Source: Metallosphaera hakonensis JCM 8857 = DSM 7519 (GTDB lineage Archaea > Thermoproteota > Thermoprotei_A > Sulfolobales > Sulfolobaceae). From it: a stretch of DNA of 64,000 nucleotides. Made by a program: the position numbers and the translations under genes. Below the pieces are notes generated by a model. The model searched no databases and was not told the DNA's origin. It saw only the letters and a list, made by a program, of their open reading frames with translations. This document shows positions 37,065 through 58,497 of the stretch, one piece after another. Within the stretch, counting starts at the first letter, position 1, and the number at the start of each line of letters is the position of its first letter. Where the stretch lies: NCBI RefSeq assembly GCF_003201675.2, contig NZ_CP029287.2, positions 496,001 through 560,000 of the forward strand. The letters run 5' to 3'.

Positions 37065-37642
37065 GAACACCTCAGGGCCGAATCACCCATTGTAGAGTCA
37101 ACCCTCTGTTGAACCAGACTTTCAGATAGCGCAATTAGGTTAGGTTTGAAGTTAATGCTTAGGTCTTTGGGCAAATTTATCATTTCACGTAGAACGGTCA
37201 CCTTCAAACCATGCAACTTTGCATGTATAGCCAGGTTTATCCGCGTAGTTGTGAAGTTCATTATGCCTGGAAGACTATTGGCCCTTCTTGCGGAGTAGGT
37301 GAAGAACTCCCTTGAGGGCATGAAACTCTTAGCGTCGTCTGGACTTATCACGTCTTGAACGAAAACGTCGAGGTTATACCTCATTAACAGGGATTTAACT
37401 TCAAGCTTCGGCAGATTGGTCACTAAGTAGATCCTGGCCCTATAGTTAAGTTCCTCGAGATAGAGGGCGTCGTCGTAGGGCTTCACTTCGCTTAAGTTAA
37501 GGTCTCCCACCAATGATCTCAAGAGATCCCCTGCGGGATAGTATTTGGAGCCGAGAGCCGTGGTCACATCATTGTAAACGTCTATCCCCTTTACCCCAGA
37601 GAAGTTGAAAATCGAATCGACGTCAATAAGGAAGGGTATCAT
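37061..37642 (-). CDS. HAD-like accessory protein, possibly degenerate
   Basis: The 193-aa protein begins FLIDVDSIF, a match to the first HAD motif with DxD-like acidic residues. IYLVTNLPKLE follows as the motif II Ser/Thr-like strand, and a region around DVISPDDAKSFMPSREFFTY resembles the later lysine and acidic motifs of HAD hydrolases. Motifs are weaker than in active phosphatases. It overlaps both neighbours (4 nt each), so it belongs to the molybdoenzyme accessory operon. A role in cofactor or enzyme maturation is inference only. Confidence 0.55.
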   Translation of the reverse strand: MIPFLIDVDSIFNFSGVKGIDVYNDVTTALGSKYYPAGDLLRSLVGDLNLSEVKPYDDALYLEELNYRARIYLVTNLPKLEVKSLLMRYNLDVFVQDVISPDDAKSFMPSREFFTYSARRANSLPGIMNFTTTRINLAIHAKLHGLKVTVLREMINLPKDLSINFKPNLIALSESLVQQRVDSTMGDSALRCS

Positions 37643-39114: not shown

Positions 39115-39767
39115 TACCTTTCACCTAGGAAATCTCTCTCGAACTTAAGCCAGTCTCCGAGCTGAGAACATACTACCTTAAATATATTGGACCTTGGGTC
39201 ATGGATCACGTCATTTATCCAGTCTGGTATCCAGGAGAAGAGGTGGGTTATGGCGAAGTTCTTCTGGTCTTGAACCACCTTAAACGCGTCCAATCCCTTC
39301 CTCCTATGATCAAACTCTTCCTCCACAAGAAGGGACATAAAAGCCAGAAGAGAGGAGATGTGATCAGGTTCGGGACTAAATTGCGACGAAATTTTGGGAA
39401 CTAGATTCCTTGATCTGTAGAACCTCACAACGTCATTATACTTGAAAGTCGCCACCCTATCACCCATGAGGGAGAAAAGCCTCTTACTTTCAACTGGGAC
39501 CAGTGGCTTAATACCAACTCCCGATATGAATAGTGAAGAATACTCAGTCAGGTAATCGCTCCTTTTCGCCTGTTCAAAAACCGCTCTTATCTCTCCCACT
39601 TTAATGCCTGTCTCCTCCATATATGTCCCGAGCCTTTCCTCAATACTCTTGAGCTTATCCATAAGCTGGTGATATTCCTCGGGATCAAACTTGTAAAGGA
39701 AAAGGTCCGAAAACATGTCATAGATCGAATGCCTAACGTTTAACACGTCAAGAATAGATACGGACAA
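39114..39767 (-). CDS. TorD/DmsD-family molybdoenzyme chaperone
   Basis: About 217 aa, all-helical. [20 protein letters not shown] opens the fold and [20 protein letters not shown] is the family's hallmark 'E(P)DH' helix region. Such chaperones hold the catalytic subunit and its Tat signal until cofactor loading is complete. I place the start at a TTG (39767), because GGTGATC lies three bases before it, exactly as before the start of the Fe-S subunit gene. The longer frame from 39938 would overlap that subunit by 155 nt. The partner is most likely the 1434-aa subunit encoded upstream. Confidence 0.85.
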
Positions 39768-39783
39768 GAAGATCACCAAAAAA

Positions 39784-40617
39784 TTATTGACTTGTGTTGG
39801 AGGAACTGGGCCCTCCGCTCTCGGTATAGGTTGAATTGTTACCCTGGGCACCCAGTTGAACGACGCCGTTTGAGGTCCAGACATTGTAGTACTGGGCTTG
39901 ACTGAGCAATTCCACGTCATTGTCAGCTGCATAGTCACTGTGCCATGGGAGATACCCGCTGGCTGGGTTGGCTCCGGTCTCTGGGCCCAAAACGAACCCT
40001 CCCTTATCCACGAAGAGTATGTTCCCTGGATCAGTGGGGTCTAGCCTGTTTGCCCAGATCCTGGCCTGAACCATACATCCGTGGATACACGCGGGTATCC
40101 TTTCCTCTGGTGGGAGTGTGGGATCGTAAATTCTATCAAAACAGTGAGTGCACTTCTTTGTGACGCCCTCCACGTAATCGAAGAACCTATTTCCGTAGGG
40201 ACAAGCGTAGATACAATACTTGGTTCCTATGCACTCCTCGTAGTCCACGAGAACTATTCCGTCCTGAGTTCTCTTGAACGTTGCCCCCACCGGGCATACC
40301 TCTACACAAGGAGCATTCATACAGTGGAAGCAATTAATGGGGATGTTGTAAACCTTAGTTTGCGGATAGTTACCGACCTCGACGTATAGGACCCTAAGCC
40401 AGAACATGACATCAAGGTTCCCGTATGGATCCAGGTCAGGGAGTGGACCGAACATTCCCGACGTATTCCACTCCTTGCACGACATCTGGCATCCGGCGCA
40501 TCCGAAACATTTGTTGAGGTCAGTTATTATGGCGTAGTTTGCCACAGGGGTATAGGGCAGAGCCTTCTGAACTCCGCCTTGTCTTATATCCAGTTGGATT
40601 TGTGGGGTTTGGGACAT
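39784..40617 (-). CDS. Four-cluster iron-sulfur subunit of a DMSO-reductase-family enzyme (DmsB/SreB type)
   Basis: The 277-aa electron-transfer subunit has the four Cys groups of the NrfC/DmsB family: [14 protein letters not shown], then [17 protein letters not shown]. These are followed by [17 protein letters not shown] and CTHCFDR...ACIHGCMV. It binds four [4Fe-4S] clusters and links the catalytic subunit to the NrfD-type anchor. The ATG at 40617 is preferred over GTG 40626, because AGGTGATC, a good complement of the 16S rRNA 3' end, sits three bases upstream. It follows the catalytic subunit gene by 24 nt. The Ser/Gly/Asn-rich C terminus is unusual. Confidence 0.92.
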
Positions 40618-40641
40618 TTGGATCACCTTAACTAGACGAAA

Positions 40642-43600
40642 TCACCCTTGACTTGAGGGGTCGGTTGCGAACCCATACCTCACCTTGTACGTTCCAATGG
40701 TATAACTTGGCGCTAGGGAACCCGGAGATACATAACTCCATATGCTCGTTGAGGTCATGTTGTTGGCGTCAAACCTCAGATGGGGTACGTTTACGGGTTG
40801 AGCGAAGGTTGGCTGGGACGGGGAACTGCTGACCGATATCTGACCAGACATCTGATTTAGGATAGTGGAGAGGATATCTTGGTTCGCAAAGTCTTGACCC
40901 ATGTAAGTGAACCTGTTTGCGGTCACTTGAACCTGAGACGCAGTGCTCTTGCCCACAATCTTTATCCTACTATCATGCCAAGAGGTCTGACCAGTGATAG
41001 GATCTAAATACATTATTGGGAAAGCCTTATCTGTAGTGGGCGATAGTTGACCTCCCCTTGAAGGAGGCATATAGGATATGTTTGCCCAGTTATTGAGAAC
41101 GCTGTACTTAACTTGGGGTGAGTCTGGGGTCTGACTTCTGAATCCGGGCAAGGCCTGGGCTGAAACAATGACCCAAGCTGCACCTGGTCTAGTGGCGTTA
41201 TCTAGGAAAGCAACTGCAGTCAAGGTAGTCCTAAGTCCTCCACTCCAGGGCTCATTGATGGCTTCAAACTGAACCATATCACCACTCTGGATGCCCATGC
41301 TTTGTACGTAAGGGTCTGCAGAGCTTAACATCACGGGAGTGTAGGGCATTATTGCTATCAACCACGGAACGTTGAATGACCACGTGTGATATGTTCTATC
41401 ATGTCTCCTGACGAAGAAGGTTAGAGGATAGTTATTCTCGTTTATTCCATCCGCGGTAATATTGGACGACCATGCGGGGGGTGGGTAGTATCCTCCGAAA
41501 GGTCTGTGATAGTCCAGTATGTTCTTGGCTAGAGCTTGGCCGTAACTGTCGTTCGGTAGCACTGAGGGCACCTTCAGGTTGGCGTTCCCCGTCTTCAGGT
41601 AATAGTAGTAGTAGGCCGCGTTGTATCCAGTCCACTTACCTGCAGCTGCCAACCTAAACTTCTGGAGATATTCTAGATAAATCCTGTGAACATAAGGCAA
41701 CCCTATGGGTCCATATCCTCCCGGCATGTACGCGCCCCATCCTAGGAAGTAGAACATATTGACGTTTCTCATGTATCTGATGGACGGAGGAAGAACGTAA
41801 GCCGCTCCTCCCTTACCTACCTTGACGTAACCTGGGTTTATGTCGTTGAGTGACATGTTGGGGGCGTACTTATTTATTATATCCTGAAGCTTCGATTGCA
41901 AACCAGGCTGGAACTTCACGGGAATCCTAAAGTAATGTTCTGTCCCAGACGACCTATCACTTGCGCCTATCTTGAAAGTAGGAGCAGTGGAGAAGGTTTG
42001 GCCTGAACCCACGCTGGTTAATATTTGATTTATAACGCTCTGCTGGTTTGAGGATGCTGGGACGAAGGAGGCGTATAGCTTCAATTGTTGTGGGTTCGGG
42101 ACCTGCTTACCTTCCGAGTCTGCCAAGATATACTCGAAGTTGCTCCCATATCCTGCCAAGAGTGTGCCTGACTTGAGAATATACATCGCCGAGGAAATCA
42201 AACCGGGCTGACCCTGAGCTAATATCTGGGTCCCACTTATTGGATCCGTCACGCTCACTGGACTGATCAGGCTACCTCCGGTTATGGGATCCTGAGTAGT
42301 GTAATGCGGGTTGTCGGTGGGAGTAATTGATTTCTGTCCTGGATAGGCCCTCAGTAGCCACAACAAGGTGAGTAGAGTGTCACCTGTAGATAGCACTGGG
42401 TACATGGAAGGTAATGCCGGCCAGTTCAATGAGTCCGAAGGCCCTTGTGGTAAACTTGTGGGCCTATCGAAGGTACTGTGGAATCCGTAAATTTCCAGGA
42501 AGGAGAGATCGGGCATTACAAGATCTACCACGTTATCGGTCTCCTGCATGAATAGGTCGAAGCTAACTGTGAATGGAATCACGTAATTACCGCTTGAGTC
42601 CTTCTCTGTAACCTTCTGGAGTAGATCCGTGAGGGTGTAAGCGTTGTTCCAGTACGGAGCTGTGATATACCACATCATTGCGTTGATTGTGTAGGGCATC
42701 ACTTGATTTGGATACTTGTTAGCGAAATAGGTTGTATAAGCAACGGCTGATATTGATCTCTGGGTAGATAAGGGAATTTCCCAGCTGTATCCTCTGTCTA
42801 TGAGTAATGGCCTGCCAGAACTATAGAGAACGAGATCGTCAGGACCGTCTGGAAACCCATAAGGTCCAGCACCGACAACAGTTACGTTCTTTATGTCAAC
42901 AGTACCGTCGTTGTAGATGTACTCCGTCTTCAGGAAACCCGATCTACCCTTCGGGATAGTCAGATTAGATCCGCTTATCGCTGACGCAATGTTAGAGTCA
43001 ATTTGAGGGGAATTGGCTAGGGGGTGAGGAGGAACTGCATGACCTGGGAAATAGTGTGGATACGGGTACTTGTATAGGTCAGCTCCTGGGTTATCCCAGG
43101 CTCCCAACATTAGAACCAAGTAATATAGGGCTGCAGAACTCATGAAACCGTTAGCATGGGCTGCGAGACCCCTCATGAAATATATGGATACTGGCCTTCC
43201 AACAACATGATCGTGATATCGCCCTAGATAATCGACCCATTGCGCCGGTTCATAGATCGATTTCTGAAAAGCTACAGTGGCTAATTCGTTGGCTATCCTT
43301 ATTACGGTATTATGCGGAATTCCAGCCAGGTTAGCTACGTTCAATGAACCATACTGAGGAGATGAAGCTGATGGGGTGTATGGATCGTAGTTAAGGAGTT
43401 CAGCCCTGAACAGTTCAAATGCAGTCGTCACTGTGAGCGTGATTGTCTCAGTTGACCCAAGCGCCTTGGGAACCGTAACCTGGATAGCTGGAACCTTTAC
43501 TGAAGTTCCATCCTTGAGTTTATATGGCACTTGAACTATGCTTGACTGCATGGTCGAGGGCAACTCATCCATGGTAATTATGGGCATCACGTTCTTCTGC

Positions 43601-44946
43601 CATGGGGTATCTACGTAGGAGTAAACGTTTCCGTCATTGCCCATGATGGCCTCAAGCCACGGGTGAGAACTACTATATTGTGCATTGCTCACGGGCATCC
43701 TCAGATGAAGGCCCACATTATTTCCTGCTGTGGGATCTGTCGGATCTAGAGCATCGCCGTTTTGAGGGTTTGGATTTACTATTACCAACCATGACATATT
43801 AGTGTAATACCTAAGGAAGTCCTCGTCTATATGAGGGAATACAGCAGTGCTCGGTATGTCCCCGAGGCTAGGTATGGATTGGACTTGCCCTGAAGGCGTT
43901 ACCGTTTGCATTATCAATTGTCCTGAGGCTGAGTCGTAAGCTGGTTGAACAGGAGTTAAGGTAACGGGATTTATAACCTGAGGACCTTGTCCTGTGGACG
44001 CCAGATAAGCCTTATAAACATAGTAATGGAAGTCATGTAGAACCCTTATCCATCCCATCGCTAGAGCTCCGTCCATTGCTGGATTGATGAACAAGTGCTC
44101 GTCGGAGACCGAGTAGAACCCGAACCTCTCGGGAGCTATAGTAACTACTTTCCCTCCATTCTCCCTTATTCTGGCAATTATTCTCCTCATCCAATTGGGG
44201 AAATGATCTCCCGCTAATCCGGCAAGGATAAAATATTGGGCTCTTTCCTCATCTGGCCCAGCATACTCCCAGACTGGCGCTCCTGTTACATAAACCCCAG
44301 CTGTGTAAACGTTCATCGAGCAGAATCCACCGTGTGCTCCTGCGTTAGCTGTACCGTAATTCCCAGCAAAGAAACCGGCCGTTATACCCGGTATCAACTG
44401 ATCCCTGCCCTGGAAGAAAGCTAGGGAATGTGGGTTGGTCTCCCTTATTTGCATTAATCCTTGGAAGTTGGACACGCCCAGCTCCTGTGGAGTGATACCG
44501 AGGTTACTCCAACTCTTAGCTGAGGCCCCGTTCACGAGGATATCAAAAGCGGTATCATAATCTATAGCCATCCATTTTCCAGATCCCCTATCCCCTGCCC
44601 TCAGAAGGGGATATCTCAGCCTAGCTGGGGCAAAGTAGTAATAAACGTCTGATGCTCCCCTTGGACAGACCCCTCCATCGTTTATGTGCCATCCGATGGT
44701 ACCTGTTATGAACCTAGGGAAACCCGTTGGAGTCCTCACTATCTCCAGCGCGCATCTCCCCAGGCACTGGAAACAGTTGGAGTACACGATTTCGTCGCTG
44801 GGATAATTTAGGGTGTAATTAGTTTCAGAGAAGGTATCAAATATCTTCTTGGCCACCGAATTAGCTCCCAGAATTAAGGCAGTACCGAGAGCAGCTGCCC
44901 CACTTACCTTTAGAAAGTCCCTTCTGGACAATTTCAAGTGGCTCAT
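40642..44946 (-). CDS. Molybdopterin oxidoreductase catalytic subunit, Tat-exported (sulfur reductase/DMSO reductase family)
   Basis: The 1434-aa protein begins with a twin-arginine signal ([20 protein letters not shown]), so it works outside the membrane. A [4Fe-4S] motif CFQCLGRC plus CPRG (about 55-92) opens the enzyme. [10 protein letters not shown] at about 205 places a Cys where the family binds molybdenum or tungsten. The dinucleotide-binding C-terminal domain is at about 1140-1340. At 1434 aa it is far longer than the 750-1050 aa usual for DmsA, PsrA or PhsA, with insertions in the middle (about 290-470 and 880-1000). Candidate substrates are sulfur, polysulfide, thiosulfate or tetrathionate. 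Operon layout favours a sulfur-reductase-like role, but the substrate cannot be read from the sequence. Confidence 0.88.
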
Positions 44947-44989
44947 TAGTTATCTAAAGTTGGTTAACTTGCCTAGATTATTTAAGAAC

Positions 44990-45847
44990 TCACTTCACTT
45001 TATCGATATTTCCACCTGGAGATATTTTTACGTTTAATAGATCCTCGATGACGACCTTAATTGAGGGGTCGAGACTTAGGGCTATCTGGATCTCTTGAGT
45101 TGGATCTTTGCCTAGTTTGTAGAGAATTGAAGCTTTTAACGCATAATAGTTAGCCTTTTTACCCTTGGAAATTGCCAGGTCAATGTAGAGAAGCGCGTCT
45201 TGAAACATTTCCAGGGTGTAGTAACATAGAGCAATATCATAGTAATGGTCTGGGTTCTCAGGCTCATAGTGAGAGGCTATCTTGAATTCGCTGAGGGCTA
45301 ATTTGTGATAACCGGTCTCATAGTATATCTTTCCTTTCAAGGCATGGAGCGTAGGATCGTCCTTCTTGAAAGCCAGGGCTCTGTTGACCTCGGATAAGGC
45401 ATCGAGTTTTAGTCCCATATTATAATAAGAGAATGCCTTCAACACTCTTGCCTCAATGTTCTTGGGATTGGACCTAAGGACTTCAGCCAGCTCTAAGTTA
45501 GCGTCCTCGAATCTCTGGAGCCCGAAGAGGATCCTCGCCTTGATCAAATGATGTTCTGAGGAGAACGGTATGATCTCAAGCACTCGATCCACAGAATCTA
45601 AGGCTTCCTCTAGTCTTCCCGCCCTCTCCAATAGCTCTGCTCTTTCAGTTAGGATAACGTAACTAAACGGAAACCTCTGAAGACCATCGTCCAATTCCTT
45701 CAGCGCCCTATCAAGTTGACCCAGCTTGGAGTAGGATTCAGCCCTTAGTACAAAGGCCTCCACGAGTTCCAATTCCCCTAAAACAGAGAGGGCCTCCTGG
45801 GGCTTATTCTCCTCCAGAAGTCTTTCTGCCTCAACTAGGGGATCCAC
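44990..45847 (-). CDS. TPR-repeat protein
   Basis: The 285-aa soluble protein is built almost wholly of about seven TPR units (for example [40 protein letters not shown]). A GTG start follows GAGAGGAGATTGG. Its end lies 43 nt before the molybdoenzyme start and the same strand continues, so it may be the first gene of that operon; a TATA-like TTAAATAATC at its 3' end suggests that the catalytic subunit also has its own promoter. TPR scaffolds assemble complexes, so a maturation role is possible. Confidence 0.85.
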
Positions 45848-45966
45848 AGAACCAATCTCCTCTCAGGGGTTATAAGGTTAAGATGAAATATGTTTAACTA
45901 AACATATCGACTACGTGAAATGAAACTTTATTTAAATTAATTAGTAAACGAAGGAATCAGATAAAG

Positions 45967-47034
45967 ATGGGTCTATTTAGCGCGCCTTCTCCAGGGACTT
46001 CGTTCGGGATACAGGCTCCTATAATACAAATAAACCAATATCCACTATGGAGCGAATACGTAGCTCTCGCCCTTTACTTCACCGAAATTGCCGGAATGCT
46101 GATGGCTATAATAGGGTTAATGGAGGTTACTGGTAGATTCGGCTCCTTCACCAAGAGGGCATCAGTTGTAACCTTCATTGCTGCCATATTGGCCTTAGGG
46201 TTTTTCGATGCTGATTTGGGTAGGCCCTCAGCTGCGATTTCCTCGCCCATTGAAGCGTTAGCGAACTTCTCTCACTCATGGATGGCCAGAGGGATTATTT
46301 TCGTCGGTGGATTGCTCCTCTTCTCGTTCCTCTACATGATCGTGACAGTCGCTAACATGAAGAGTAGGTTAATAAGGGGCGTAATAGCTATAATTGGAGT
46401 TTTCGCAGGCATATTTTCAACAACCTACAGCGGGTTTGAGCTTGCCGCTACAACGGGAGTACCATTTTGGAATAACGGAGGGATCCCAGCCCTCTATTTG
46501 GCTGACGGCATATTTGCTGCTGCTGGTCTAGCTTACCTGATCGCCCTAGTTGGCAAGAGCGAGGACATGATAAGGGCGAGAGTTACCTTAACCAAATTAC
46601 TCCTCTTCTCTAGCGTAGCAGAACTAGCGACGTGGTTCCTCTTCATGGCTTCTGTTAACTTCATTTACGTCTTCGATCAGGTCGCTTACAATTACTTAAT
46701 TTCTCAAGCCTCTTTCTACGCGGACATGGGCTTGACCGCACTAACTCTAGTAATATCAGGTATTGGAGGTCTAGCGATCAGTGGGGTGCCCATGATGGGA
46801 ATGAAGGGACAGGCACCCTCCAAGGCAGTGGGTCAAATGCCAATAATGGATCTTCCTGCGGCAATTAAATACCTAATGATCGTTGCGGCCATATTTGCCT
46901 TAGTCGCAGGTTACCTAACTAGAGCTGACATACTTTTCGCAGGACAATATGCGTATCAACTGGCCCCAATGACACCATTCCAGATAGTAACCAATCAACC
47001 AATTCCCATTGGAAGCTTTGGTTGGAGAGGTTAA
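45967..47034 (+). CDS. NrfD/PsrC-type membrane subunit of the molybdoenzyme (SreC-like)
   Basis: The 355-aa integral membrane protein has about nine hydrophobic helices and no soluble domain ([40 protein letters not shown], and so on). The motif FFDADLGRP at the end of the second helix is the quinone-site region of NrfD/PsrC/DmsC families. It would anchor the Fe-S and catalytic subunits and exchange electrons with caldariellaquinone-type quinones. It is divergent from the other subunit genes, and a TTTATTTAAATT box lies about 35 nt upstream. Split transcription of anchor and catalytic genes is a notable layout. Confidence 0.88.
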
Positions 47035-49191: not shown

Positions 49192-49561
49192 AATTCAGTA
49201 AACAATAAGAAAAGGTATAAGTTCAACTCTCTTTTGATCTGCAATCACTCCATTTAAGGAGACTTCCATGTATAGATGTGTAAGAAACGTAATTTTCAGG
49301 TAAAATACACAACTGTATCCGGTAGGCCCCCATTTAAGTGATTTCCAAAACTTATGCGAGAATGTCTCAGGGTTTTAAATTTCGAGTTATTTGAGAAGCT
49401 TTCTCTGGAGAAAGTAACGTGCTCAGGGCGATTCTTAGAACGAACCTTGGTCCCGCCTACTTTCCGGCTAAAGGGCATGGGCTCTTCTCTTTGTCAAGTT
49501 CAAGATTTTGCCATCGCTTGCCTGAGGAAAGTTTATTTATATGGATAGCCTATCCAAAACC
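49192..49561. promoter_or_regulatory. Intergenic region with a repeat-like segment and the promoter of the ABC transporter operon
   Basis: GTTTATTTATAT (49531-49542) is centred 25 nt before the ATG at 49562 and is the TATA box of the operon. AAACGTAATTTTCAGGTAAA and ATACACAACTGTATCCGG (about 49285-49322) match a segment at about 34888-34925. Open frames here are short and were not called. Confidence 0.6.
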
Positions 49562-50524
49562 ATGAATTCTAGGATCCTACTTGGAGTAAGTGTCCTTGTA
49601 GTTGTATTGGTGCTTTTCTCTGTACTTTACACGAACATGAGGTTAGGTACCTCTCAATCTCCAGATTTACGTTTAGTGTCATTGGCCCCCAGCGACACTC
49701 AAATCCTGATATCCTTGGGATTAGGAAAACACATAGTGGGTGTCGATTCCTACTCATACTCGCTCTTGGAGCTACTAAATGACACGAAATTTCTACCATC
49801 AAACGTAACTATAATTCAGGCTAGTAGTTCGGTTAACGTTAGCGGGATACTTCTACTTCATCCCAGCCTAGTTATCGATGAGGAGGGGCTGATCGGAAGC
49901 AACCTTAATCAACTGAGGGAAGCCGGCCTCAATGTGACCCTTACCAATGACGATTACGCTCAAAACTTCACCCAGATCGAAAGTTCAGTCCTGAATTTGT
50001 CATCTCAGCTGGGAGTAAAGGGTAACGGTGAAAAGGTTGTCTCCTGGATGAACGGATATCTAAATAACTTTTCAAGATCGGGCAATACCAGCGTGGCATA
50101 TCTGATCTGGATTTGCCCGAACTATGAATTCTATACCGCTGGCGGTAACGTGTTCATAAATAACGTAATAAATTACGCCGGTGGGGTTAACGTGTTCTCG
50201 AATCAAAGCGGATATCCTCTTCTAGGTCCTTCGTCCTTAATCTTGGCCGACCCTCAGGTAATCGTTGTCCAAGAGGTGTATAACCTGAGCTACACGGAGT
50301 ATCTGATAAATCACTTTCCAGGGATTACCAGCACCAAGGCATTCCAGGATCACAGGATCTATATTCTTTCCGAGAACTTACCAACAGACCTACTAAACGA
50401 ACCGGGACCCCTCGCAGTGTACGGAGTTGAAATGATGAACGAAATTGTCTCCGGTCAGTCCCCAGGATACGTTAACACGAGCTACGTTCTCAAGGAATTT
50501 AACGTTACGTTACCGGTGTTCTAA
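49562..50524 (+). CDS. ABC transporter substrate-binding protein (metal-chelate/cobalamin, BtuF/FepB-like)
   Basis: The mature protein is extracellular and lipid- or helix-anchored: an N-terminal hydrophobic segment (ILLGVSVLVVVLVLFSVLYT) follows the ATG at 49562. The upstream ATG at 49541 lies inside the TATA box, so it is rejected. The fold begins RLVSLAPSDTQILISLGLGK, then HIVGVDSYSY and PSLVIDEEGLI, the pattern of class III binding proteins for siderophores, haem or vitamin B12. The protein is 320 aa and rich in N-x-S/T sites. The permease gene starts immediately after the stop. Confidence 0.88.
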   Translation: MNSRILLGVSVLVVVLVLFSVLYTNMRLGTSQSPDLRLVSLAPSDTQILISLGLGKHIVGVDSYSYSLLELLNDTKFLPSNVTIIQASSSVNVSGILLLHPSLVIDEEGLIGSNLNQLREAGLNVTLTNDDYAQNFTQIESSVLNLSSQLGVKGNGEKVVSWMNGYLNNFSRSGNTSVAYLIWICPNYEFYTAGGNVFINNVINYAGGVNVFSNQSGYPLLGPSSLILADPQVIVVQEVYNLSYTEYLINHFPGITSTKAFQDHRIYILSENLPTDLLNEPGPLAVYGVEMMNEIVSGQSPGYVNTSYVLKEFNVTLPVF

Positions 50525-51502
50525 TTGAACTACCTGAGGATGTCGATAATTGGTTTACCGTTGGTGTTTTTCCTTGCCTTATTGTTTGGTGAGGTTTTCA
50601 TCCCTCCTCGTTATCTTATCCACCCAGAGGGGGCATACGCATACATACTTTTCAACATAAGACTTCCTACAGTGATAGCCTCAGCCTTGATAGGGGCAAT
50701 ACTTGCTACCTCTGGAGCTATCATGCAACTCCTATTGAGAAACCCTCTCATGGATCCATATATATCCGGTACTGCCTCGGGAGGGGCCTTCGGGGCCGTG
50801 TTGGCCTATTACCTTCTCGCGTTCAATCTTCCCTTTTCCTGGATAGCTTATATTTCCCCTATTATCGCCTTCGTGTTCTCCCTGGTATCGACTCTCATAA
50901 CATTATTGATTGGTAGGAAGAGCGGTGTATACGGAATAATGATAGGGGGAGTTATCGTGTCTTACGTGTTCTCGTCAATAATCTCAATTATGCTTACGTA
51001 TTTGGAGGAAAGATTCCCTCAGGTCCCCCCACTCACTTTCTGGCTTTTGGGAGAGATTGAGGTTGTGGGATGGTTTGACGTAGTGGTGCTGGCAATACTC
51101 GCAACCGTGATAGGGACACTGGGGATATACGACGCAAGGATGATTGACTTAGCTTCTATCAGCGACGATCTAACGGTATCTAAGAACGTAGACCCCAACA
51201 AGTTCAGAATGTTATGGGTTGTCCTCATAAGTGTGGCAACTGGTTTCATTGTATCCATGGCGGGGATCATAGGTTTCTTGGGGATCATTGTTCCCCACAT
51301 TATAAGGAGAGTGAACTCAGGGAGCGCATCTAAGTTGATACCGTACTCCCTTATTATGGGCGGAACCGTAATGATGGCCAGTCAAATCGTCTCTGACGGT
51401 GCCCTGGGACTGAAGATACCGCTCACTGCGATCACGTCAATTCTAGCCTCCCCCATAATGATCTACGTCCTGGTGAAGGGGATTGCTAATACAGGGAATT
51501 AA
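50525..51502 (+). CDS. FecCD/BtuC-family ABC permease
   Basis: The 325-aa protein has about ten transmembrane helices. RLPTVIASALIGAILATSGA and MQLLLRNPLMDPYISGTASG are the conserved first loops. GIIGFLGIIVPHIIRRVNSG is the cytoplasmic coupling region. A TTG start follows the upstream TAA directly, consistent with coupling; an ATG exists five codons later. It forms the pore for the substrate delivered by the binding protein. Confidence 0.9.
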   Translation: MNYLRMSIIGLPLVFFLALLFGEVFIPPRYLIHPEGAYAYILFNIRLPTVIASALIGAILATSGAIMQLLLRNPLMDPYISGTASGGAFGAVLAYYLLAFNLPFSWIAYISPIIAFVFSLVSTLITLLIGRKSGVYGIMIGGVIVSYVFSSIISIMLTYLEERFPQVPPLTFWLLGEIEVVGWFDVVVLAILATVIGTLGIYDARMIDLASISDDLTVSKNVDPNKFRMLWVVLISVATGFIVSMAGIIGFLGIIVPHIIRRVNSGSASKLIPYSLIMGGTVMMASQIVSDGALGLKIPLTAITSILASPIMIYVLVKGIANTGN

Positions 51503-52127
51503 GGTAAAGATTGGTAACAGGTTGATCCTCTCTGATATCCAGTTCGAGCTCTCAAGAGGTGTCAATCTGGTTCTGGGCCAAAACGGCGCAGGGAAGACAA
51601 CCCTCCTTAGGTCAGTTATTCAAGTTCTTCGCGGAACAAGGCAAGGTTACGTTCCCTCCGAGTTCTCCTCTCCTGAAATTTCAGTAGAGGACGTCTTGCT
51701 AGCGGGCACCAGAAATAGATTAAGGAATTATGAACCCTTCATTGACTCTCTTGGAATAAGACGCCTCTTAGGTAGAGCGTTCTCCACCCTGAGCACTGGA
51801 GAGAAGAAGTTAGTCCTAATTACAAAGGCTCTGGCTGAAGGGGAACTCGTGTTCATGGATGAGCCCACGTCGGGACTGGACGTCAGGAACCAAGCTAGGG
51901 TTATCTCCGTTATTTCCTCCCTGAGGACTGAAAAAAGCTTTCTAATAACTACCCATGACTTAAACTGGATAGGAATGGCGGACTGGGTCATGGTTATGAA
52001 GGGAGGGAAAATAATCTGGCAATCCACGGCCAACGAACTTAACGAGGAAGTCTTGGAGAACGCCTACGAAAGTAAGGTGAAAAGAATTAATGTGGATGGA
52101 AAAAACATATTTATCTTGAATATCTGA
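51483..52127 (+). CDS. ABC transporter ATPase subunit (short form)
   Basis: The 214-aa protein has Walker A GQNGAGKTTLL (about 34-44), the signature LSTGEKKLVLITKAL (about 107-121) and Walker B VFMDEPTSGLD (about 126-136), and a switch His in ITTHDLNW. It starts with TTG, overlapping the permease end by 20 nt. It is shorter than typical BtuD/FecE proteins (about 250 aa), lacking part of the C-terminal tail. It powers import of the chelate. Confidence 0.9.
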   Translation: MLIQGIKVKIGNRLILSDIQFELSRGVNLVLGQNGAGKTTLLRSVIQVLRGTRQGYVPSEFSSPEISVEDVLLAGTRNRLRNYEPFIDSLGIRRLLGRAFSTLSTGEKKLVLITKALAEGELVFMDEPTSGLDVRNQARVISVISSLRTEKSFLITTHDLNWIGMADWVMVMKGGKIIWQSTANELNEEVLENAYESKVKRINVDGKNIFILNI

Positions 52128-52130
52128 CGA

Positions 52131-53738
52131 TTAAGCGTAGAGAGTATAGTCAGGAAACACTTGGTATAGTGGTACCGCTACCACCCATCCGTAACTGTTG
52201 GTTAGATACATTGTACTGCCCACTATTACTGGGTTAACAATGCCGAACCTACCTCCCACATAGTACTGTTGGAGAACCTCACCGTCATGGGGATTAATTA
52301 CGTAGACGTAGGGACCTCCGGCCACCCACAATAGATTCTCGTAGTATGTTGCACCACCTCTGGGTCCTCCAGGCGCGCTCGGCGGTAGACCTATTCCGTT
52401 CAACCTCGTCTGCCACTCTATTTGACCGGTCATCAGATTCAGGGCGAACTCCTTACCCAGGGAGGGAGCACCAACGTAAACTGTATCGTTGTATATCATG
52501 GGGACAGCTCCCTTGAAAGCTGGAGGTGTGTAACCCCGACCCAAATTGGTTACCCAGAGAACATGACCGTTGGTCGCATTAACTGCTAGTACCATGGTGT
52601 CCACAGTTCCGTTGGGTTCAGCGTTTGCTACCGTGGATTGGACCACGATTCCCATCTGTTGGTCCACTGCGGGGGGCACGTCTCCCATTCCAGTGTTAAA
52701 GGGCTTGTTGGGTGCAGGTAGCGAGGCGTTCCAGACCTCCTTCCCAGTCATCCCGTTCACCGCAACCAGTAACCCATAGGGTTCAGTAAGACTTGTGAAA
52801 CCCGCTATGAATATTGGAGTACCATTAGGCAGAACGTAGTAGTTAACACTGCTCATACTGTCGAATAGGCCTGGCATCATATCCTGCCATAAGACCTGGC
52901 CCGTGGTGGCGTTCACCCCCATGAACTCTCCTCCGCCATCAGAATAAGCTAGGATGCCGTTATATACTGCGGGCGCGGGCATGGCCTCACCCATGGTGAA
53001 CTTCATCCATAATAGTTCGCCGTCTGTAGCATTAAAGGCGTATATGGCACCGTAGGCCATACCCCTGTGGATCGAAGAGAATTGACCTTTCTCGTAATGA
53101 ACGAAGTTAGCGAAGTTGAAACCTACGTCGCCAACCGTTACGTAAACTATGCCATCATAGACAATGGGGTTATTCATCGCGTAGCTCGCTAGCCCTGTGG
53201 CGTACCAAACCACTTGGCCGTTCAATGGGTTGACTGCGAATATGCTTCCGGGTCCACTATCCTCCTCTACAAAGAGGAGATTATCAGCCATGGTGACACC
53301 TAGGGGTTCGCCAACCATCTGAGTCAGCATTACTAAGGCTGACCTGGTCCCCATCACACTGGCTCCTGGCAGCATGTTTTGTGGAGCAGTCATGGGAATT
53401 AATGCAGCGCCTGCCATATGAGCGAAATCCTGTTGCCATACAACTCCCTGAGTCAGTAAAGTGCATGTAGTGGTGAAGGCAGCATTATGGGATTGCCCTC
53501 CATTGGTCACACCCCAATACGAAGGTAAACCTAGGTTTTGGCTTGTGGCATTCCCAGGATAGTATGTTACCTTTACTTCATATGGAAAATACGTCGTATT
53601 GTACATGTCATAAGTCCTGACTACGGGTTGTGGGATAGGCATTATGACCTGAGAAAAGAACTGTACCATTGGTGTACCTGCAAACGTACCTACCAAAAAC
53701 ACTGAGACAAGAGCTATCACGAAGATTAACTTTCTCAT
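52131..53738 (-). CDS. tetH: Tetrathionate hydrolase-like secreted beta-propeller protein
   Basis: The 535-aa protein carries an N-terminal signal peptide (LIFVIALVSVFLVGTFAG) and an eight-bladed-like PQQ propeller. Repeats follow the pattern 'AVNPLNGQVVWYATG', 'ALNLMTGQIEWQTRLNG' and 'VINPHDGEVLQQY'. Length, signal and repeats agree with archaeal tetrathionate hydrolase of Acidianus and Metallosphaera, which splits tetrathionate into thiosulfate, sulfur and sulfate at the cell surface. Those proteins use the propeller without PQQ. A PQQ dehydrogenase is an alternative, but no partner genes are present. It converges on the ABC transporter gene with only a 3-nt gap. Confidence 0.82.
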   Translation of the reverse strand: MRKLIFVIALVSVFLVGTFAGTPMVQFFSQVIMPIPQPVVRTYDMYNTTYFPYEVKVTYYPGNATSQNLGLPSYWGVTNGGQSHNAAFTTTCTLLTQGVVWQQDFAHMAGAALIPMTAPQNMLPGASVMGTRSALVMLTQMVGEPLGVTMADNLLFVEEDSGPGSIFAVNPLNGQVVWYATGLASYAMNNPIVYDGIVYVTVGDVGFNFANFVHYEKGQFSSIHRGMAYGAIYAFNATDGELLWMKFTMGEAMPAPAVYNGILAYSDGGGEFMGVNATTGQVLWQDMMPGLFDSMSSVNYYVLPNGTPIFIAGFTSLTEPYGLLVAVNGMTGKEVWNASLPAPNKPFNTGMGDVPPAVDQQMGIVVQSTVANAEPNGTVDTMVLAVNATNGHVLWVTNLGRGYTPPAFKGAVPMIYNDTVYVGAPSLGKEFALNLMTGQIEWQTRLNGIGLPPSAPGGPRGGATYYENLLWVAGGPYVYVINPHDGEVLQQYYVGGRFGIVNPVIVGSTMYLTNSYGWVVAVPLYQVFPDYTLYA

Positions 53739-54447
53739 GGTAATTTGAGGTAATATCTTTTGTTTTTATACTTAATTACTTTAAAAGGCTGTGTTTTACT
53801 TTTCATTGATTTAGATAAAAGGAAATTCAAAGTATATAAAGAGACGTATATTCAATGCCCCATGATTTATTTGTTTTTAACTGATTTTTTAGAACTTTGA
53901 CGATCTAAAACTGTAAATTTATATAAAGATTATCTTAAATAAACAATAAAATTCATACGTATTAGCAGATAATGGGCTGTCAATAATATATTAGACGAAA
54001 TAGTCATGATAGCCTACCAGTACGATCTTATCTTGAATTGACACTGATTTACATGTCAGAGATCAGACATATATTGAGGAAAAGATGATTGAGCTAACAA
54101 AGAATCTTCCGAATAGCAGTTGTTATACTTTGCCTCGGTAATACATGATCCCCAGTATTGTCAAGAAAGTTTTTTGATTAGTAGCTAACTGAGTGAAAAG
54201 TATGGAGGAATCTCCTAGATTTATTGAAAAATGTTTAAGAAAAGCCTCAGACCGATGAAGATGTTTAGCCACGTAAAAGTATAACAACTGCTGTTCTGAA
54301 AATATCTGCTCTTGCCTATGACTTCTGCCAAGTTGAAACAGGGTTTAAGTAAGGCAAGATGTTAGACTCCAACTCTGCCCCTATGGTCCGTCCTTTAGTT
54401 TTTAATGAATGGAGTGTTAAGGGTAGGACTTGACCTGGTCCGTCAGA
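53739..54447. repeat. Intergenic region with a MITE-like inverted repeat
   Basis: AGCAGTTGTTATACTTT at 54115-54131 is repeated inverted at 54276-54292, perfect over 17 bp, with 144 bp between. The enclosed AT-rich DNA has no good ORF. A promoter-like AT-rich zone for tetH lies at about 53760-53790. Otherwise nothing recognisable. Confidence 0.6.
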
Positions 54448-54822
54448 TTACCTCCTCAGGAGTAAGCCCTGTACTACACAGTACGCCTGCGCCAAAGAAC
54501 AGTAGAGACATATTGCCCCTATTAAGGTCTCCGTATATATTAGGTAGATGGAGAACAAGACCCCAATCACCCACCAATATCTAAGGAATTGAGGTAAACT
54601 CAAACTCCATAGTACAATCATTACAACGAAGAAGAAAAGGCCTAAGAGCGCGTCTGGGACTCCCAGAAAATGGGAGTACGGACTGAACTCGACTTTTCCG
54701 CAATCAATAGTTGAGGATATATTGCAGTATGCTGGGGGTCTATCATGTATTGTCTCATACAAAAGATATGAGGAGTCAATAAGCCCTGCCGAGGATAGAA
54801 CCAATCCAACTATTCTGTTCAC
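54448..54822 (-). CDS. Vitamin K epoxide reductase (VKOR)-type thiol oxidase
   Basis: The 124-aa membrane protein has four helices. The loop Cys pair is in YCNISSTIDCGKV (about 32-43) and the active-site pair in GAICLYCSLAQAYC (CLYC at about 107-110). This is the VKOR fold, which oxidises thioredoxin-like partners and passes electrons to quinone, forming disulfides outside the membrane. Length is at the short end of the family but complete. The start overlaps the end of the upstream Fe-S protein gene by 4 nt, so the two are translationally coupled. Confidence 0.88.
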   Translation of the reverse strand: MNRIVGLVLSSAGLIDSSYLLYETIHDRPPAYCNISSTIDCGKVEFSPYSHFLGVPDALLGLFFFVVMIVLWSLSLPQFLRYWWVIGVLFSIYLIYTETLIGAICLYCSLAQAYCVVQGLLLRR

Positions 54823-55925
54823 TGTGGCTTCACCGCATTCATGATATATGACCTTAATTTCCTGAAGTAAATTCTACCGTCAACAATGAAAATATTATCG
54901 TGAGGACATTCTTCAATACATTCTCCTGCGCCAATGCATTTAAACGCCTTGAGCTCCCCTTTCTTAATGAAAGATGCCCTCATGTCTGTAATACCAACAG
55001 GGCAAGCCTTAGCGCAATCAACAGTTTTACACGTTAGGCATTTCGAGGGATCGTTCACCTTAAGCTTAAACGGACCCAAATACCCGAAAAACTGGTTAAA
55101 GGTACCCCAACCACAAAGCCCATGATTAACGCACGCGTAATTTCCTACAATTGGGATTAAAAGGAACTGGATATACCACACGAAGTTGAAATACAGCGAG
55201 GTCAGGAGTTCAGTCGGGTCCTGGTTAAGAATTTGAACAGAAAGAACATGAACCTGGTCCAAATAGGACAAGGTTGCAAATGCAATGATATTCGCCCATA
55301 CTAGAGTAGACGTTATCTTAAATAATGGTGAAAGCCGAGACGTTAAGGTCTTCCTACCTAACTTAGTTGTCCTATTGAACGTCTTAAATCCATCTGGGAA
55401 ACCCTGTAACATAAATGGAGCTGTACAAGTTACCGAGCATATTTGACGATTTCCGAAAAGGAAAGATAAAATTGCAGTTACAAGATATGTACCCAATATT
55501 CCCACAAGAAGTGAAGGTGCCACAGGGCCAAACGTTCCAAATCCATTGAACCAGGAATAGGGTATATAGGGGAACGTTGATTGGAAGGGTGAGAAGGAAG
55601 GTAAGTATATACTGTAGATCCAGTAAGAAAGGAACATTAGAGAAAGTCTTACTTTGTTTTCTCGTTTCTTAGAGGCGATTATTCTGTAGATGACTGAAAC
55701 ACCTAACCAGCATCCCATTAGTATCATGAAGATGGGAGATGAGGCTACACTTTCAAAGAACAATATAAAGTTCCAAATCGGAACAAATCCAGACCATGAA
55801 AAGGGTATAGAGTACGTTGAAGACATGAAAAATACTGAAAGGAAACCCTCTAAGATCAAAAGGAATGCTATCCTCGGGGAGGAATTGAGCTTAACTTTCA
55901 AATTACGAGCACTAAACAGAAACAA
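54819..55925 (-). CDS. NapH-like membrane polyferredoxin, N-terminal part perhaps in the next frame
   Basis: The frame has several transmembrane helices. A 2[4Fe-4S] block lies at its C terminus (CLTCKTVDCAKACPVGITDM, then CIGAGECIEECPHDNIFI). A CxxxC pair sits at about residue 165 (QICSVTCTAP). This resembles NapH/CcoG-type quinol-linked electron-transfer proteins. The only start in the frame here is TTG, inside a hydrophobic segment. The same frame is open and hydrophobic for 40 codons upstream to a run of eight A, next to the stop of a small membrane ORF. A one-base shift at that run would join them into a protein of about 485 aa. Function: membrane electron transfer to or from thiol-redox partners (inference). 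Confidence 0.7.
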   Translation of the reverse strand: MFLFSARNLKVKLNSSPRIAFLLILEGFLSVFFMSSTYSIPFSWSGFVPIWNFILFFESVASSPIFMILMGCWLGVSVIYRIIASKKRENKVRLSLMFLSYWIYSIYLPSFSPFQSTFPYIPYSWFNGFGTFGPVAPSLLVGILGTYLVTAILSFLFGNRQICSVTCTAPFMLQGFPDGFKTFNRTTKLGRKTLTSRLSPLFKITSTLVWANIIAFATLSYLDQVHVLSVQILNQDPTELLTSLYFNFVWYIQFLLIPIVGNYACVNHGLCGWGTFNQFFGYLGPFKLKVNDPSKCLTCKTVDCAKACPVGITDMRASFIKKGELKAFKCIGAGECIEECPHDNIFIVDGRIYFRKLRSYIMNAVKPQ

Positions 55926-56040
55926 AACTATCAGGATAGGTAGGGACTCTACCCAGAATTCATTAATGTAATATAGTAAGAATGACAGCGATGTGAGTAG
56001 TAAACCACTGGGAACACTTAAATCGATAATTGAGACCTGA

Positions 56041-56274
56041 TTAATTTTTTTTAAAAATTGTCAAGAAATAGTAGCCCATGAATAAGGATAGGACTATATA
56101 GGTCTCCAATTCTAGGAATTTAGCCAGTGGAATAGTTGACATTAAAATCGGAAAAATACCTGATATTTTACGTTGATTTACTAGGACTATGATGCTCCAT
56201 AAACTAGCCAGGAGAAGATCGGCAAGGTACATATCTGTTCCCAAAGAGAGATTTAGGTCACCAACAAATAACAA
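56041..56274 (-). CDS. Small membrane ORF, possibly the N-terminal part of the polyferredoxin
   Basis: 77 aa with three hydrophobic segments (about residues 14-32, 41-52 and 58-74) ending LTIFKKN at a run of eight A (56047-56054 region, minus strand). Reading on after dropping one A gives INQVSIIDLSVPSGLLLTSL and enters the downstream frame without a stop. Either a separate small protein, a programmed or slippage frameshift, or an assembly error. Confidence 0.5.
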   Translation of the reverse strand: MLFVGDLNLSLGTDMYLADLLLASLWSIIVLVNQRKISGIFPILMSTIPLAKFLELETYIVLSLFMGYYFLTIFKKN

Positions 56275-56390
56275 CAGTCATCAAAACAACAGTTTCCATA
56301 AAAAATGATATAATACGTTTGTTAGAAAATTTCTTATATTTTGACGAGTTCAAACAACCTTTTAGATTCAAGAAATTCTTCGTGATCCTT

Positions 56391-56400
56391 AAGTATAATA
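56391..56400 (+). promoter_or_regulatory. TATA box of the pilin-signal-like secreted protein gene
   Basis: AAGTATAATA is centred about 23 nt before the ATG at 56418, giving a leaderless transcript. It decides the start, because the longer frame beginning at 56319 would put codons upstream of the promoter. Confidence 0.6.
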
Positions 56401-56417
56401 TCTCAATTCAATCTGCA

Positions 56418-57392
56418 ATGAGTTCCAAAAAAGCTGTATCAAATGTGATTTTTGCGGCAGTGACCATTATCCTGGTCGTTGTCGCAGCCATAGGATTCGG
56501 GCTCTATGCGACCAAGGCACCTACGACTAAATACGTTAACGTTACTCAGCCAGTTTATATTAACAAGACGGTTCCAGTGTATGTTAACAAGACTGTGCAG
56601 GTTCCAACACCTACTCCATCTTCTGGGGCTTTCCTGAACGGTCAGGTAATCACTTTCGACTATACGGCCCAATTCTCTTGCAGTCCAGCTTTGACTCAAT
56701 TCTTCCCCAACGAGACTCAAGCTAACCAAGTGGCCATGGAATGCGAAGTGGGAGCAGCACCCAGCTCCTCTCAACTACCTCCCGGAGCTGCTCCAGTATA
56801 CGTAGTGGTACCAGCGTTCGCTGGACTTTCAATATTCGGAGTACAGAAGCTAGGGGCTAACCCTCAAGGATATCCAGTGTTCATGTACAATGGACAGAAC
56901 TACACCATCTTAACTCAGTGTGGTGCAGCTGCAACTGACGCAGCCTGTGCTGACCATATGACCTACATATACTCGCCTGCCTTCACGGTAGTTGAGAAGT
57001 ACTTGGGTATAAACAACGGAGTGTTCGGCCTGCCAGAGGGAGTGCTACCCACACCGGCTCACGATCACATAGTGACTTTCTCGACCAACACTTCGATACC
57101 GTGGTACATAGTCGTAGTACTGGACTTCAACCCCAACATATTCCCCAACCCTCTTACGGGGCAATGCCAGGCCATAGTACCCTCAAACCAGACCAATCCA
57201 ACGGGTCTATGCTTGAACTCCTATCAGAACGTGCAGAAGGCCATGTCAACATACGATAGCGCAGTTGCAGCAGCCAACCAGAACAACCCCATATGGGAGG
57301 CTCTAGGTAAGCCGGGAGTTGACGTAATTAGCGTCCCAAGCAACATGATCCTATACTTCAGCGATCCAGATATATACCCGTATCCTATGTAA
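56418..57392 (+). CDS. Secreted protein with a type IV pilin-like (class III) signal, function unknown
   Basis: From the ATG at 56418 (324 aa) the N terminus MSSKKAVSNVIFAAVTIILV is a short basic segment, then a long hydrophobic helix, as in archaeal pilins and PibD-processed proteins. The remainder is extracellular. A repeated YVN/YIN-K-TV linker (VTQPVYINKTVPVYVNKTVQ) and Pro-rich spacer follow. A beta-rich domain comes next with seven Cys (FSCSP, MECEVG, TQCGAAATDAACADHM, GQCQAIV, GLCLNSY). A DHIVTFSTNT stretch has a His. It is not a recognised family. Neighbouring VKOR and thioredoxin-fold genes suggest that it may need disulfides. It lies 18 nt before the DUF929 gene. Confidence 0.65.
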   Translation: MSSKKAVSNVIFAAVTIILVVVAAIGFGLYATKAPTTKYVNVTQPVYINKTVPVYVNKTVQVPTPTPSSGAFLNGQVITFDYTAQFSCSPALTQFFPNETQANQVAMECEVGAAPSSSQLPPGAAPVYVVVPAFAGLSIFGVQKLGANPQGYPVFMYNGQNYTILTQCGAAATDAACADHMTYIYSPAFTVVEKYLGINNGVFGLPEGVLPTPAHDHIVTFSTNTSIPWYIVVVLDFNPNIFPNPLTGQCQAIVPSNQTNPTGLCLNSYQNVQKAMSTYDSAVAAANQNNPIWEALGKPGVDVISVPSNMILYFSDPDIYPYPM

Positions 57393-57410
57393 TTTTTTAT
57401 TGGTGAGCAG

Positions 57411-58376
57411 ATGAAAAGTAAATCTCTTATTTTCTTTATTTTGGCAATAGTTGTAATATCTGTTTTAGCTTTTTTTAATCTAAGGATTATAAATTCACCT
57501 GCATCTACAGGATCTCAAATTGGTGTAAATGTCTCAAATTCAATAAATCTTCAGCTCTATGAATTCGCTCAAAACTCCAGTGGGTACATACAGTTCAATA
57601 AATCCTTCACCTATATTGTCATGAGAGGTAATTCGGAGTTTACCTATGACGGGAAACCTGTAGTCATATTTGTTGGTGCTGAGTGGTGCCCTTACTGTGG
57701 TTCAGAGATATGGTCACTAATTATAGCCCTAGATAGATTTGGAAACGTGTCAGGATTGAAGTACATGGAGTCAAGTTCGACCGATATATACCCCAATGTA
57801 CCTACCTTTACCTTGGAAAACTTAACCTATTCAAGCAACTACATTTCTGTGCTAGCCTATGAGTTCCAAGATAGAAATCATCAACCACTTCAGTCAGTAC
57901 CTCAAAATATCTACCAACTTTGGAACCAACTTGGAAATCAGAGCATACCATTTATTGATATTGCAGGAATATACTACCAGGTTGGAACTCCCCTTAATCC
58001 AGGTGAGCTCAGTCAGCATAACTGGAGTTTCGTCCTACAAAGCTTAGAGGGATATAATGACATTTCTTATCAAATATATTCGGAGGCCAACCTGTTAACA
58101 GCGGAGATCTGTTTAGCCGACGGAGGTCAACCGGCCCATGTCTGCGATATGAAAGCAGTAGTCCAATATGAAAATGTTATTCGAGGGACAGGATCCAATT
58201 TCCAACCCCAAACCCAATACATCCTTCAGGGATCTTGGCTTGACCTCAGCGACGTAACTGAGACTTTTAGCCCCTTCTCCCAGACACAGTGGTCATATGT
58301 CTGGTCCTCATATACATTAAATACAGCTTTGAAGAGTGACTACAGGGGAAAGAACCGCATTCACATTTTCCCCTGA
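57411..58376 (+). CDS. DUF929 thioredoxin-fold protein, membrane-anchored
   Basis: The 321-aa protein has an N-terminal helix ([20 protein letters not shown]) and an extracellular domain with [13 protein letters not shown] (active-site CxxC at about residues 92-95), typical of DUF929. Further Cys occur at AEICLADGG and HVCDMKAV. The fold is thioredoxin-like ([18 protein letters not shown], then [14 protein letters not shown] as the cis-Pro strand). It could be a disulfide carrier oxidised by the VKOR protein encoded nearby. ATG follows GGTGAGCAG 4 nt upstream, a usable ribosome site. Its 3' end overlaps a small minus-strand gene by 110 nt. Confidence 0.8.
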
Positions 58377-58497
58377 TTAGCTTATTGCCCCTAATCACAA
58401 TCGTAGTTCTAAATCCCTTTATTGAACACCTTGCAGGCACAAAGGCCTCGACTTCCACTTCGTCATCCTTCATGGGTCTTACGTAAATCTCGACCAT
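58267..58497 (-). CDS. Small SWIM-like zinc-finger protein
   Basis: The 76-aa protein ends with [20 protein letters not shown], a CxCx4CxH arrangement close to a SWIM zinc finger, though the gap between the Cys pairs is shorter than usual. The preceding residues form a beta hairpin ([20 protein letters not shown]). An SD-like TTTGAGGAAT at the stop of the upstream gene suits the ATG. The last 36 codons overlap the convergent DUF929 gene. It is the third gene of a small operon with a diiron-like protein. Function unknown. Confidence 0.6.

Follow-up and report, generated by a model that had tools for sequence, protein, structure and literature searches.

Proteins of the VKOR family oxidise thioredoxin-fold partners and reduce quinone (PMC4555120, PMC11208910). 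In bacteria such as Mycobacterium, VKOR is a quinone-coupled membrane oxidase with two cysteine pairs, and an extracytoplasmic thioredoxin-fold partner with a CxxC motif, DsbA, oxidises the exported proteins (PMC3792642, PMC11208910). In plants and photosynthetic prokaryotes, VKOR carries its dedicated thioredoxin-fold partner as a fused Trx-like domain (PMC4555120). DUF929 (PF06053) is a Pfam family without an assigned function; its thioredoxin-like fold assignment, used here, comes from PMC3091736. The locus described here lies in a stretch of 64,000 nucleotides from the archaeon Metallosphaera hakonensis (NZ_CP029287.2, positions 496,001 to 560,000; the window). It encodes a VKOR, a membrane polyferredoxin (polyFd), a cysteine-rich protein (CRP) and a DUF929 protein, which together we call the module, and beside them a tetrathionate hydrolase (TTH). 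We consider it probable that the module carries out oxidative folding outside the cytoplasm, with VKOR and an oxidase of a DUF929 subfamily acting on CRP as the likely client in Sulfolobaceae.

The locus shares with the bacterial VKOR–DsbA system the two types of oxidising protein, but the archaeal partner is a DUF929 protein, often in an operon with VKOR, and a membrane polyFd and a conserved six-cysteine protein are added. Unlike the fused VKOR–Trx proteins, oxidase and partner are encoded by separate adjacent genes and the partner belongs to another thioredoxin-like family. By its predicted thioredoxin fold and CxxC motif, the module DUF929 protein would resemble a DsbA-type oxidase, a likeness and not family membership. 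By curated score it is a DUF929 member, but it falls in a CxxC, VKOR-linked clade. Like membrane ferredoxins of the NapH/MauN/CcoG type, polyFd has cysteine motifs resembling those of Fer4_5 and ends in a 2[4Fe-4S] domain.

The mau cluster (MauD, MauE, MauM, MauN) serves a client with many disulfides and comprises a thioredoxin-like protein, its membrane partner and ferredoxins of the NapGH kind. The module may resemble it in gene make-up. A search of the available literature turned up no account of this set of genes, of CRP, or of a DUF929 protein acting with VKOR.

VKOR and the two DUF929 clades

The window VKOR (124 aa, 54448–54822, minus strand), a predicted quinone-coupled thiol oxidase, matches PF07884 with 79.8 bits (cut-off 27.5, E 2.6e-22) and NCBIfam NF011480 with 136.7 bits (cut-off 120). 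Its redox cysteines form the loop pair CNISSTIDC (CX7C) and the pair CLYC; both pairs are found in 34 of the 35 VKORs of the set, the exception being a short open reading frame (ORF) call. The DUF929 protein (57411–58376, plus strand) matches PF06053 with 152.3 bits (cut-off 24.6, E 1.7e-44) and has its CPYC at residues 93–96. A small cysteine-rich, SWIM-like ORF on the minus strand (58267–58497) overlaps the poorly conserved 3' end of its gene.

Sulfolobaceae possess several DUF929 paralogs. In a maximum-likelihood tree, 105 of these and other DUF929 proteins fall into two clades with 100/100 support. Clade A (40 rows) consists of the 19 sampled Sulfolobaceae paralogs from outside the module and Thermoplasmatales-type proteins. 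The active site reads CPxG or SPxG in all 40, and none adjoins VKOR in the loci examined (L281–L290, L249–L262, L269–L277; L- and G-codes label the compared loci and genomes). Having no second active-site cysteine in their sequences, clade A proteins probably do something else. Clade B (65 rows) contains all module proteins together with proteins of Marsarchaeota, Thaumarchaeota, Micrarchaeota and Thermoplasmata, and a CxxC motif is present in all 64 readable rows. The clade B gene lies directly beside VKOR, frequently overlapping it, in 22 genomes outside Sulfolobaceae, which come from the same four groups. Adjacency to VKOR is seen for 24 of the 46 non-module clade B rows and for none of the 40 clade A rows; a p value for this difference is only indicative, as the rows are related and include a few duplicates. 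The prolines at reference residues 180 and 197, candidates for the cis-proline that DsbA-like oxidases conserve opposite the active site, are invariant or nearly so in the aligned module and VKOR-adjacent rows.

Gene neighbourhood and active-site motif agree, and established VKOR biochemistry supplies a mechanism for the pair. VKOR and the CxxC subfamily of DUF929 most likely constitute a thiol-oxidation pair of the DsbB/DsbA type. That the CPYC-bearing DUF929 protein would be a partner of VKOR had been proposed in the initial annotation of this DNA, and the recurrence of the pair outside Sulfolobaceae agrees with it.

Organisation and conservation of the module

The five genes of the initial annotation, TTH included, are all found where it had placed them. 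PolyFd (54819–56274, minus strand; ORF 54819–55925 and an N-terminal ORF at 56041–56274) was identified by Fer4 models, weak NapH/MauN matches and frame analysis, and its gene overlaps that of VKOR by 4 bp. CRP (56418–57392, plus strand) is followed after 18 bp by DUF929, this pair being divergent from the polyFd/VKOR pair. The intergenic region between them (56275–56417) is, from the gene layout, the presumed promoter region. CRP starts at the ATG at 56418 and not at the ORF start at 56319, in agreement with the start position common to the homologues.

The searches took in 147 genomes from the order and 397 from the phylum. Sulfolobaceae carry CRP, module-type polyFd and DUF929, in most cases clustered within a few kilobases, and the order and strands of these genes take about eight arrangements across the family (arrowheads give strand). 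Most Metallosphaera have VKOR<polyFd<CRP>DUF929>, and genomes that we assign to the Sulfurisphaera type have VKOR<DUF929<CRP>polyFd>. Further orders are polyFd<DUF929<CRP> in G146 and G141, CRP<DUF929>polyFd> in G011 and DUF929<CRP<polyFd> in G090, with still others in G066, G096 and G136. In the two Sulfolobus-type genomes, the set is divided into a CRP–polyFd pair and a CRP–DUF929 pair. VKOR lies within the cluster in 9 of 22 Sulfolobaceae, and a VKOR relic is present in G084. Since CRP, polyFd and DUF929 are kept within a few kilobases in about eight different orders, their clustering is not due to chance. VKOR, polyFd, CRP and DUF929 are a real unit; of the set of five recognised initially, these four are conserved together and are not randomly distributed among relatives, whereas TTH is randomly distributed and stands outside the group.

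CRP and module polyFd are both present in 21 of 25 Sulfolobaceae, a count that includes damaged copies (polyFd in G000, G119 and G141; CRP in G131), and are both missing or reduced to remnants in the other four (G059, G084, G108 and G451, from four genera). In G131 (L161, 8653–10973), CRP is cut by a transposase-like gene (DUF772, slightly below its cut-off). In G461, a genome of the same genus as the window (L303, 8406–11898), CRP, polyFd and DUF929 are all closest to those of other genera, and the module has a Saccharolobus/Sulfolobus-like version and gene order. These sequence relationships suggest that the block was replaced as a unit by transfer between genera. A polyFd match in G374 (L295) was discounted as probable contamination, the neighbours on its contig appearing identical to a Saccharolobus-type genome.

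The cysteine-rich protein

CRP is a membrane-anchored extracytoplasmic protein of 324 aa with six cysteines and a globular domain at about residues 66–321, as delimited by the homologue start, the alignment and the domain model. When 84,980 species genomes were scanned with the CRP alignment, 44 loci were obtained, nearly all outside Sulfolobaceae, in Marsarchaeota, Thaumarchaeota/Nitrososphaerota, Thermoplasmata, Micrarchaeota and Mancarchaeum. In many of these lineages the genes for VKOR and DUF929 are adjacent. The CRP gene is sparsely distributed there (3 of 372 non-Sulfolobaceae genomes of the phylum sample, and 2 of 196 genomes of the phylum of one Thermoplasmata carrier). Acid or hot environments are typical of many of these lineages. 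The carriers appear to come mostly from acid habitats, and some are groundwater metagenome-assembled genomes that are not obviously acidic. The six core cysteines are invariant in all 45 sequences, the total in the domain being six in 33, eight in 11 and seven in one. CRP was considered as a metal protein and this was rejected; some homologues have other residues in place of the histidines of its AHDH and DHP motifs, and the six cysteines never vary.

The window CRP has an N-terminal hydrophobic segment. The Sulfolobaceae proteins have KKA-VSNVI and a hydrophobic helix near the N-terminus, a possible class III signal for prepilin peptidase, which gives them the pilin-like look noted initially; the match to a pilin is weak (E 0.3). 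Micrarchaeota CRPs have an N-terminal signal and a C-terminal transmembrane segment instead, so that the pilin-like signal is not a feature of the CRP family. No Pfam family scores above its cut-off, and no PDB sequence match was obtained apart from the pilin helix at E 0.3. The AlphaFold2 model of the domain is confident (pLDDT 92.9, pTM 0.91). The best Foldseek match of the full and domain models has an E value of 1.6 (PDB and viral structures), and VIA-align gave no match of note, a result which does not prove that the fold is novel.

Outside Sulfolobaceae, 19 of 23 CRP genomes carry a DUF929 gene. CRP has no fixed neighbours at the loci examined there; scattered ones are ArsR-type regulators, an FAD oxidoreductase with Rieske, CMD proteins and one DCC1-like thiol oxidoreductase. 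Some CRPs are duplicated: G022 has a 602-aa protein with two tandem copies of the domain (L144, 6358–8166), and tandem CRP genes occur at the Micrarchaeota loci L201, L207 and L213. Several Thaumarchaeota and Marsarchaeota CRPs (L178, L180, L184 and L186) have an extra Cys-Cys (DCC or SCC) directly after the PAHDH motif, possibly forming a vicinal disulfide.

The polyferredoxin and its neighbours

The C-terminal domain of polyFd matches PF13237 with 33.1 bits (cut-off 25.5, residues 290–341). The scores against NapH (39.3 of 234 bits) and TIGR02163 (30.6 of 213 bits) are far under the cut-offs, and so the protein is described as NapH-like only. PolyFd is about 460–505 aa long in most related genomes, and the L145 orthologue has 489 aa in a single frame. 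The membrane polyferredoxin initially recognised in the window is present, but its ORF is not intact as sequenced; frame analysis places one extra base in a T8 run (A8 on the coding strand) at 56045–56052. The frameshift may be a sequencing error, a pseudogene mutation or a slippage site.

The location of polyFd genes bears on a different explanation of the locus, in which VKOR and clade B DUF929 are a general oxidation pair, and CRP and polyFd form a redox unit of their own whose presence at the locus is coincidental. The NapH/CcoG-like polyFd would then supply CRP with electrons, or would supply them to a metal or cofactor bound or delivered by CRP, for instance to a respiratory or molybdenum enzyme. 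In Sulfolobus-type genomes (L156, L168), CRP–polyFd directly follows a molybdopterin operon, away from DUF929. This operon encodes a 1452-aa enzyme, an Fe-S subunit and a NarJ-like protein, and the enzyme is 72% identical to that of the window, where a molybdopterin oxidoreductase operon (37639–47034) lies 8–15 kb from the module. The window enzyme (1434 aa, 40642–44946) has a Tat-type leader, and the orthologue of this enzyme gave no Pfam match at 1e-3. Besides the Fe-S subunit and the NarJ-like protein, the window operon encodes an Fe-S protein of 491 aa and a divergent membrane protein of the NrfD-like kind. A longer polyFd paralog of 644 aa adjoins a COX1-type haem-copper oxidase gene (L171, 7142–9076, at about 589 kb of G000:C1; also L293 and L294), much as CcoG adjoins the cbb3 oxidase. 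The joint loss of CRP and module polyFd also speaks for a separate unit. However, CRP adjoins DUF929 in most Sulfolobaceae, and most genomes have the molybdenum enzyme at a great distance from the module. CRP also has no invariant metal ligands, in contrast to its unfailing cysteines. We regard the separate unit as rather unlikely. The COX1-oxidase and molybdenum-operon neighbours are the best leads for the role of polyFd. Similar polyFd-type proteins of 680–720 aa occur in Marsarchaeota, Thaumarchaeota and Thermoplasmata.

Tetrathionate hydrolase

TTH (52131–53738, minus strand) is a PQQ-type propeller protein, 85% identical to a 537-aa protein of G022, which we take to be M. cuprina and its protein to be the characterised Mcup_1281. 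Mcup_1281 is the characterised TTH of M. cuprina and has 537 aa (PMC11818568). The initial annotation had suggested that the proteins of this locus may handle sulfur-bound thiols at the cell surface; as a sulfur-redox module, DUF929, VKOR and CRP would act on sulfane sulfur or polythionates together with TTH. In Metallosphaera, TTH is the next gene and lies on the strand that carries polyFd and VKOR. The VKOR–TTH gap is just 113–182 bp in L144 and L145 (710 bp in the window), so that read-through is possible at those two loci, a weak point in favour of a link. Expression of the M. cuprina TTH gene is higher on tetrathionate and sulfur (PMC11818568).

The distribution, neighbourhood and cysteine content of TTH nevertheless rule it out as a module member. 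TTH adjoins the module site only in Metallosphaera (G000, G022 and G102, and also G084, in which the module is lost). In M. yellowstonensis (G072), the TTH neighbourhood (L174) is without the module, which is about 135 kb away, and TTH is still flanked by its usual remaining neighbours, with transporter genes to one side and an AsnC-like gene and small genes to the other. TTH is located elsewhere in Sulfurisphaera- and Acidianus-type genomes and is absent from Sulfolobus- and Saccharolobus-type genomes that retain the module. Overall, the module is present in 11 of 12 genomes with full-length TTH and in 8 of 10 without it, which is not a significant difference (Fisher p = 0.57). CRP is moreover found in Micrarchaeota, Thermoplasmata and Thaumarchaeota. 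As in the published enzyme of M. cuprina (PMC11818568), TTH has a single cysteine, so that an internal disulfide is impossible and TTH is no client for such bonds. A sulfur or tetrathionate role is therefore highly improbable, and of the function first proposed, what stands is the extracytoplasmic disulfide module, with VKOR–DUF929 pairing in several archaeal phyla. In the window, a FecCD/BtuCDF-type operon for an ABC transporter of a metal or cofactor (49541–52127) lies next to TTH; it remains beside TTH even where the module is missing.

Discussion

The explanation that we find hardly credible is that the cluster is inherited synteny with no joint function: neighbours of common ancestry can persist passively and single members have decayed in several genomes, but the genes stayed together through about eight changes of order and strand, and several phyla have DUF929–VKOR pairs whose active-site chemistry fits the pairing.

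For the oxidative-folding module, we infer the following direction of electron flow. The DUF929 protein, tethered to the membrane, would give electrons from its reduced CPYC to VKOR, which would pass them to the membrane quinone. The oxidised DUF929 protein would then introduce disulfides into exported proteins. CRP is the most likely client of the pair in Sulfolobaceae, where the neighbouring gene may encode its main or even dedicated substrate. The six invariant cysteines would form three disulfides and could aid survival in hot acid. The NapH-like polyFd most likely carries electrons outward across the membrane. These electrons might correct wrong disulfides by reduction or isomerisation, or might go to a cofactor of CRP; this role of polyFd is proposed with low confidence.

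Several observations weigh against this proposal. No VKOR match was found in G066, G090, G096 and G136, although CRP, DUF929 and polyFd are kept, so that DUF929 would need another oxidant in these genomes. PolyFd is broken or lost in several genomes, that of the window among them. CRP and polyFd are neighbours, and their joint loss may each time reflect one deletion. In genomes of other groups than Sulfolobaceae, neither VKOR nor DUF929 adjoins CRP (the genes are about 6 kb apart in L199 and L200), and a few CRP genomes are without DUF929 (G403 and G660; 4 of 23 outside Sulfolobaceae); CRP may therefore obtain its disulfides otherwise. What speaks for the proposed pathway is the clustering of the genes, the two DUF929 clades with their active-site motifs, the adjacency of VKOR in several phyla and the conservation of the cysteines, together with the joint retention or loss of CRP and polyFd, the block in G461 and the presence of DUF929 in most CRP genomes outside Sulfolobaceae. 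A more far-reaching version, which we put forward tentatively and as less probable than the folding module itself, is that CRP is a new extracytoplasmic protein with a fold unlike solved structures, common to several phyla of archaea from mostly acid habitats and matured by a dedicated pathway of VKOR, CxxC-DUF929 and an electron-exporting polyFd in an arrangement not known elsewhere.

Disulfide formation outside the cell in acidophilic archaea is largely unstudied. CRP, for which neither a family name nor a structural relative was found, is a conserved surface protein of unrelated, mostly acid-dwelling archaea, including the small-genome Micrarchaeota, and offers a candidate client amenable to purification and mapping. 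The analysis points to a concrete two-protein pathway, VKOR and a named DUF929 subfamily, with a sequence marker (CxxC as against CPxG) by which the subfamily is recognised, and it proposes a function for one half of the DUF929 family.

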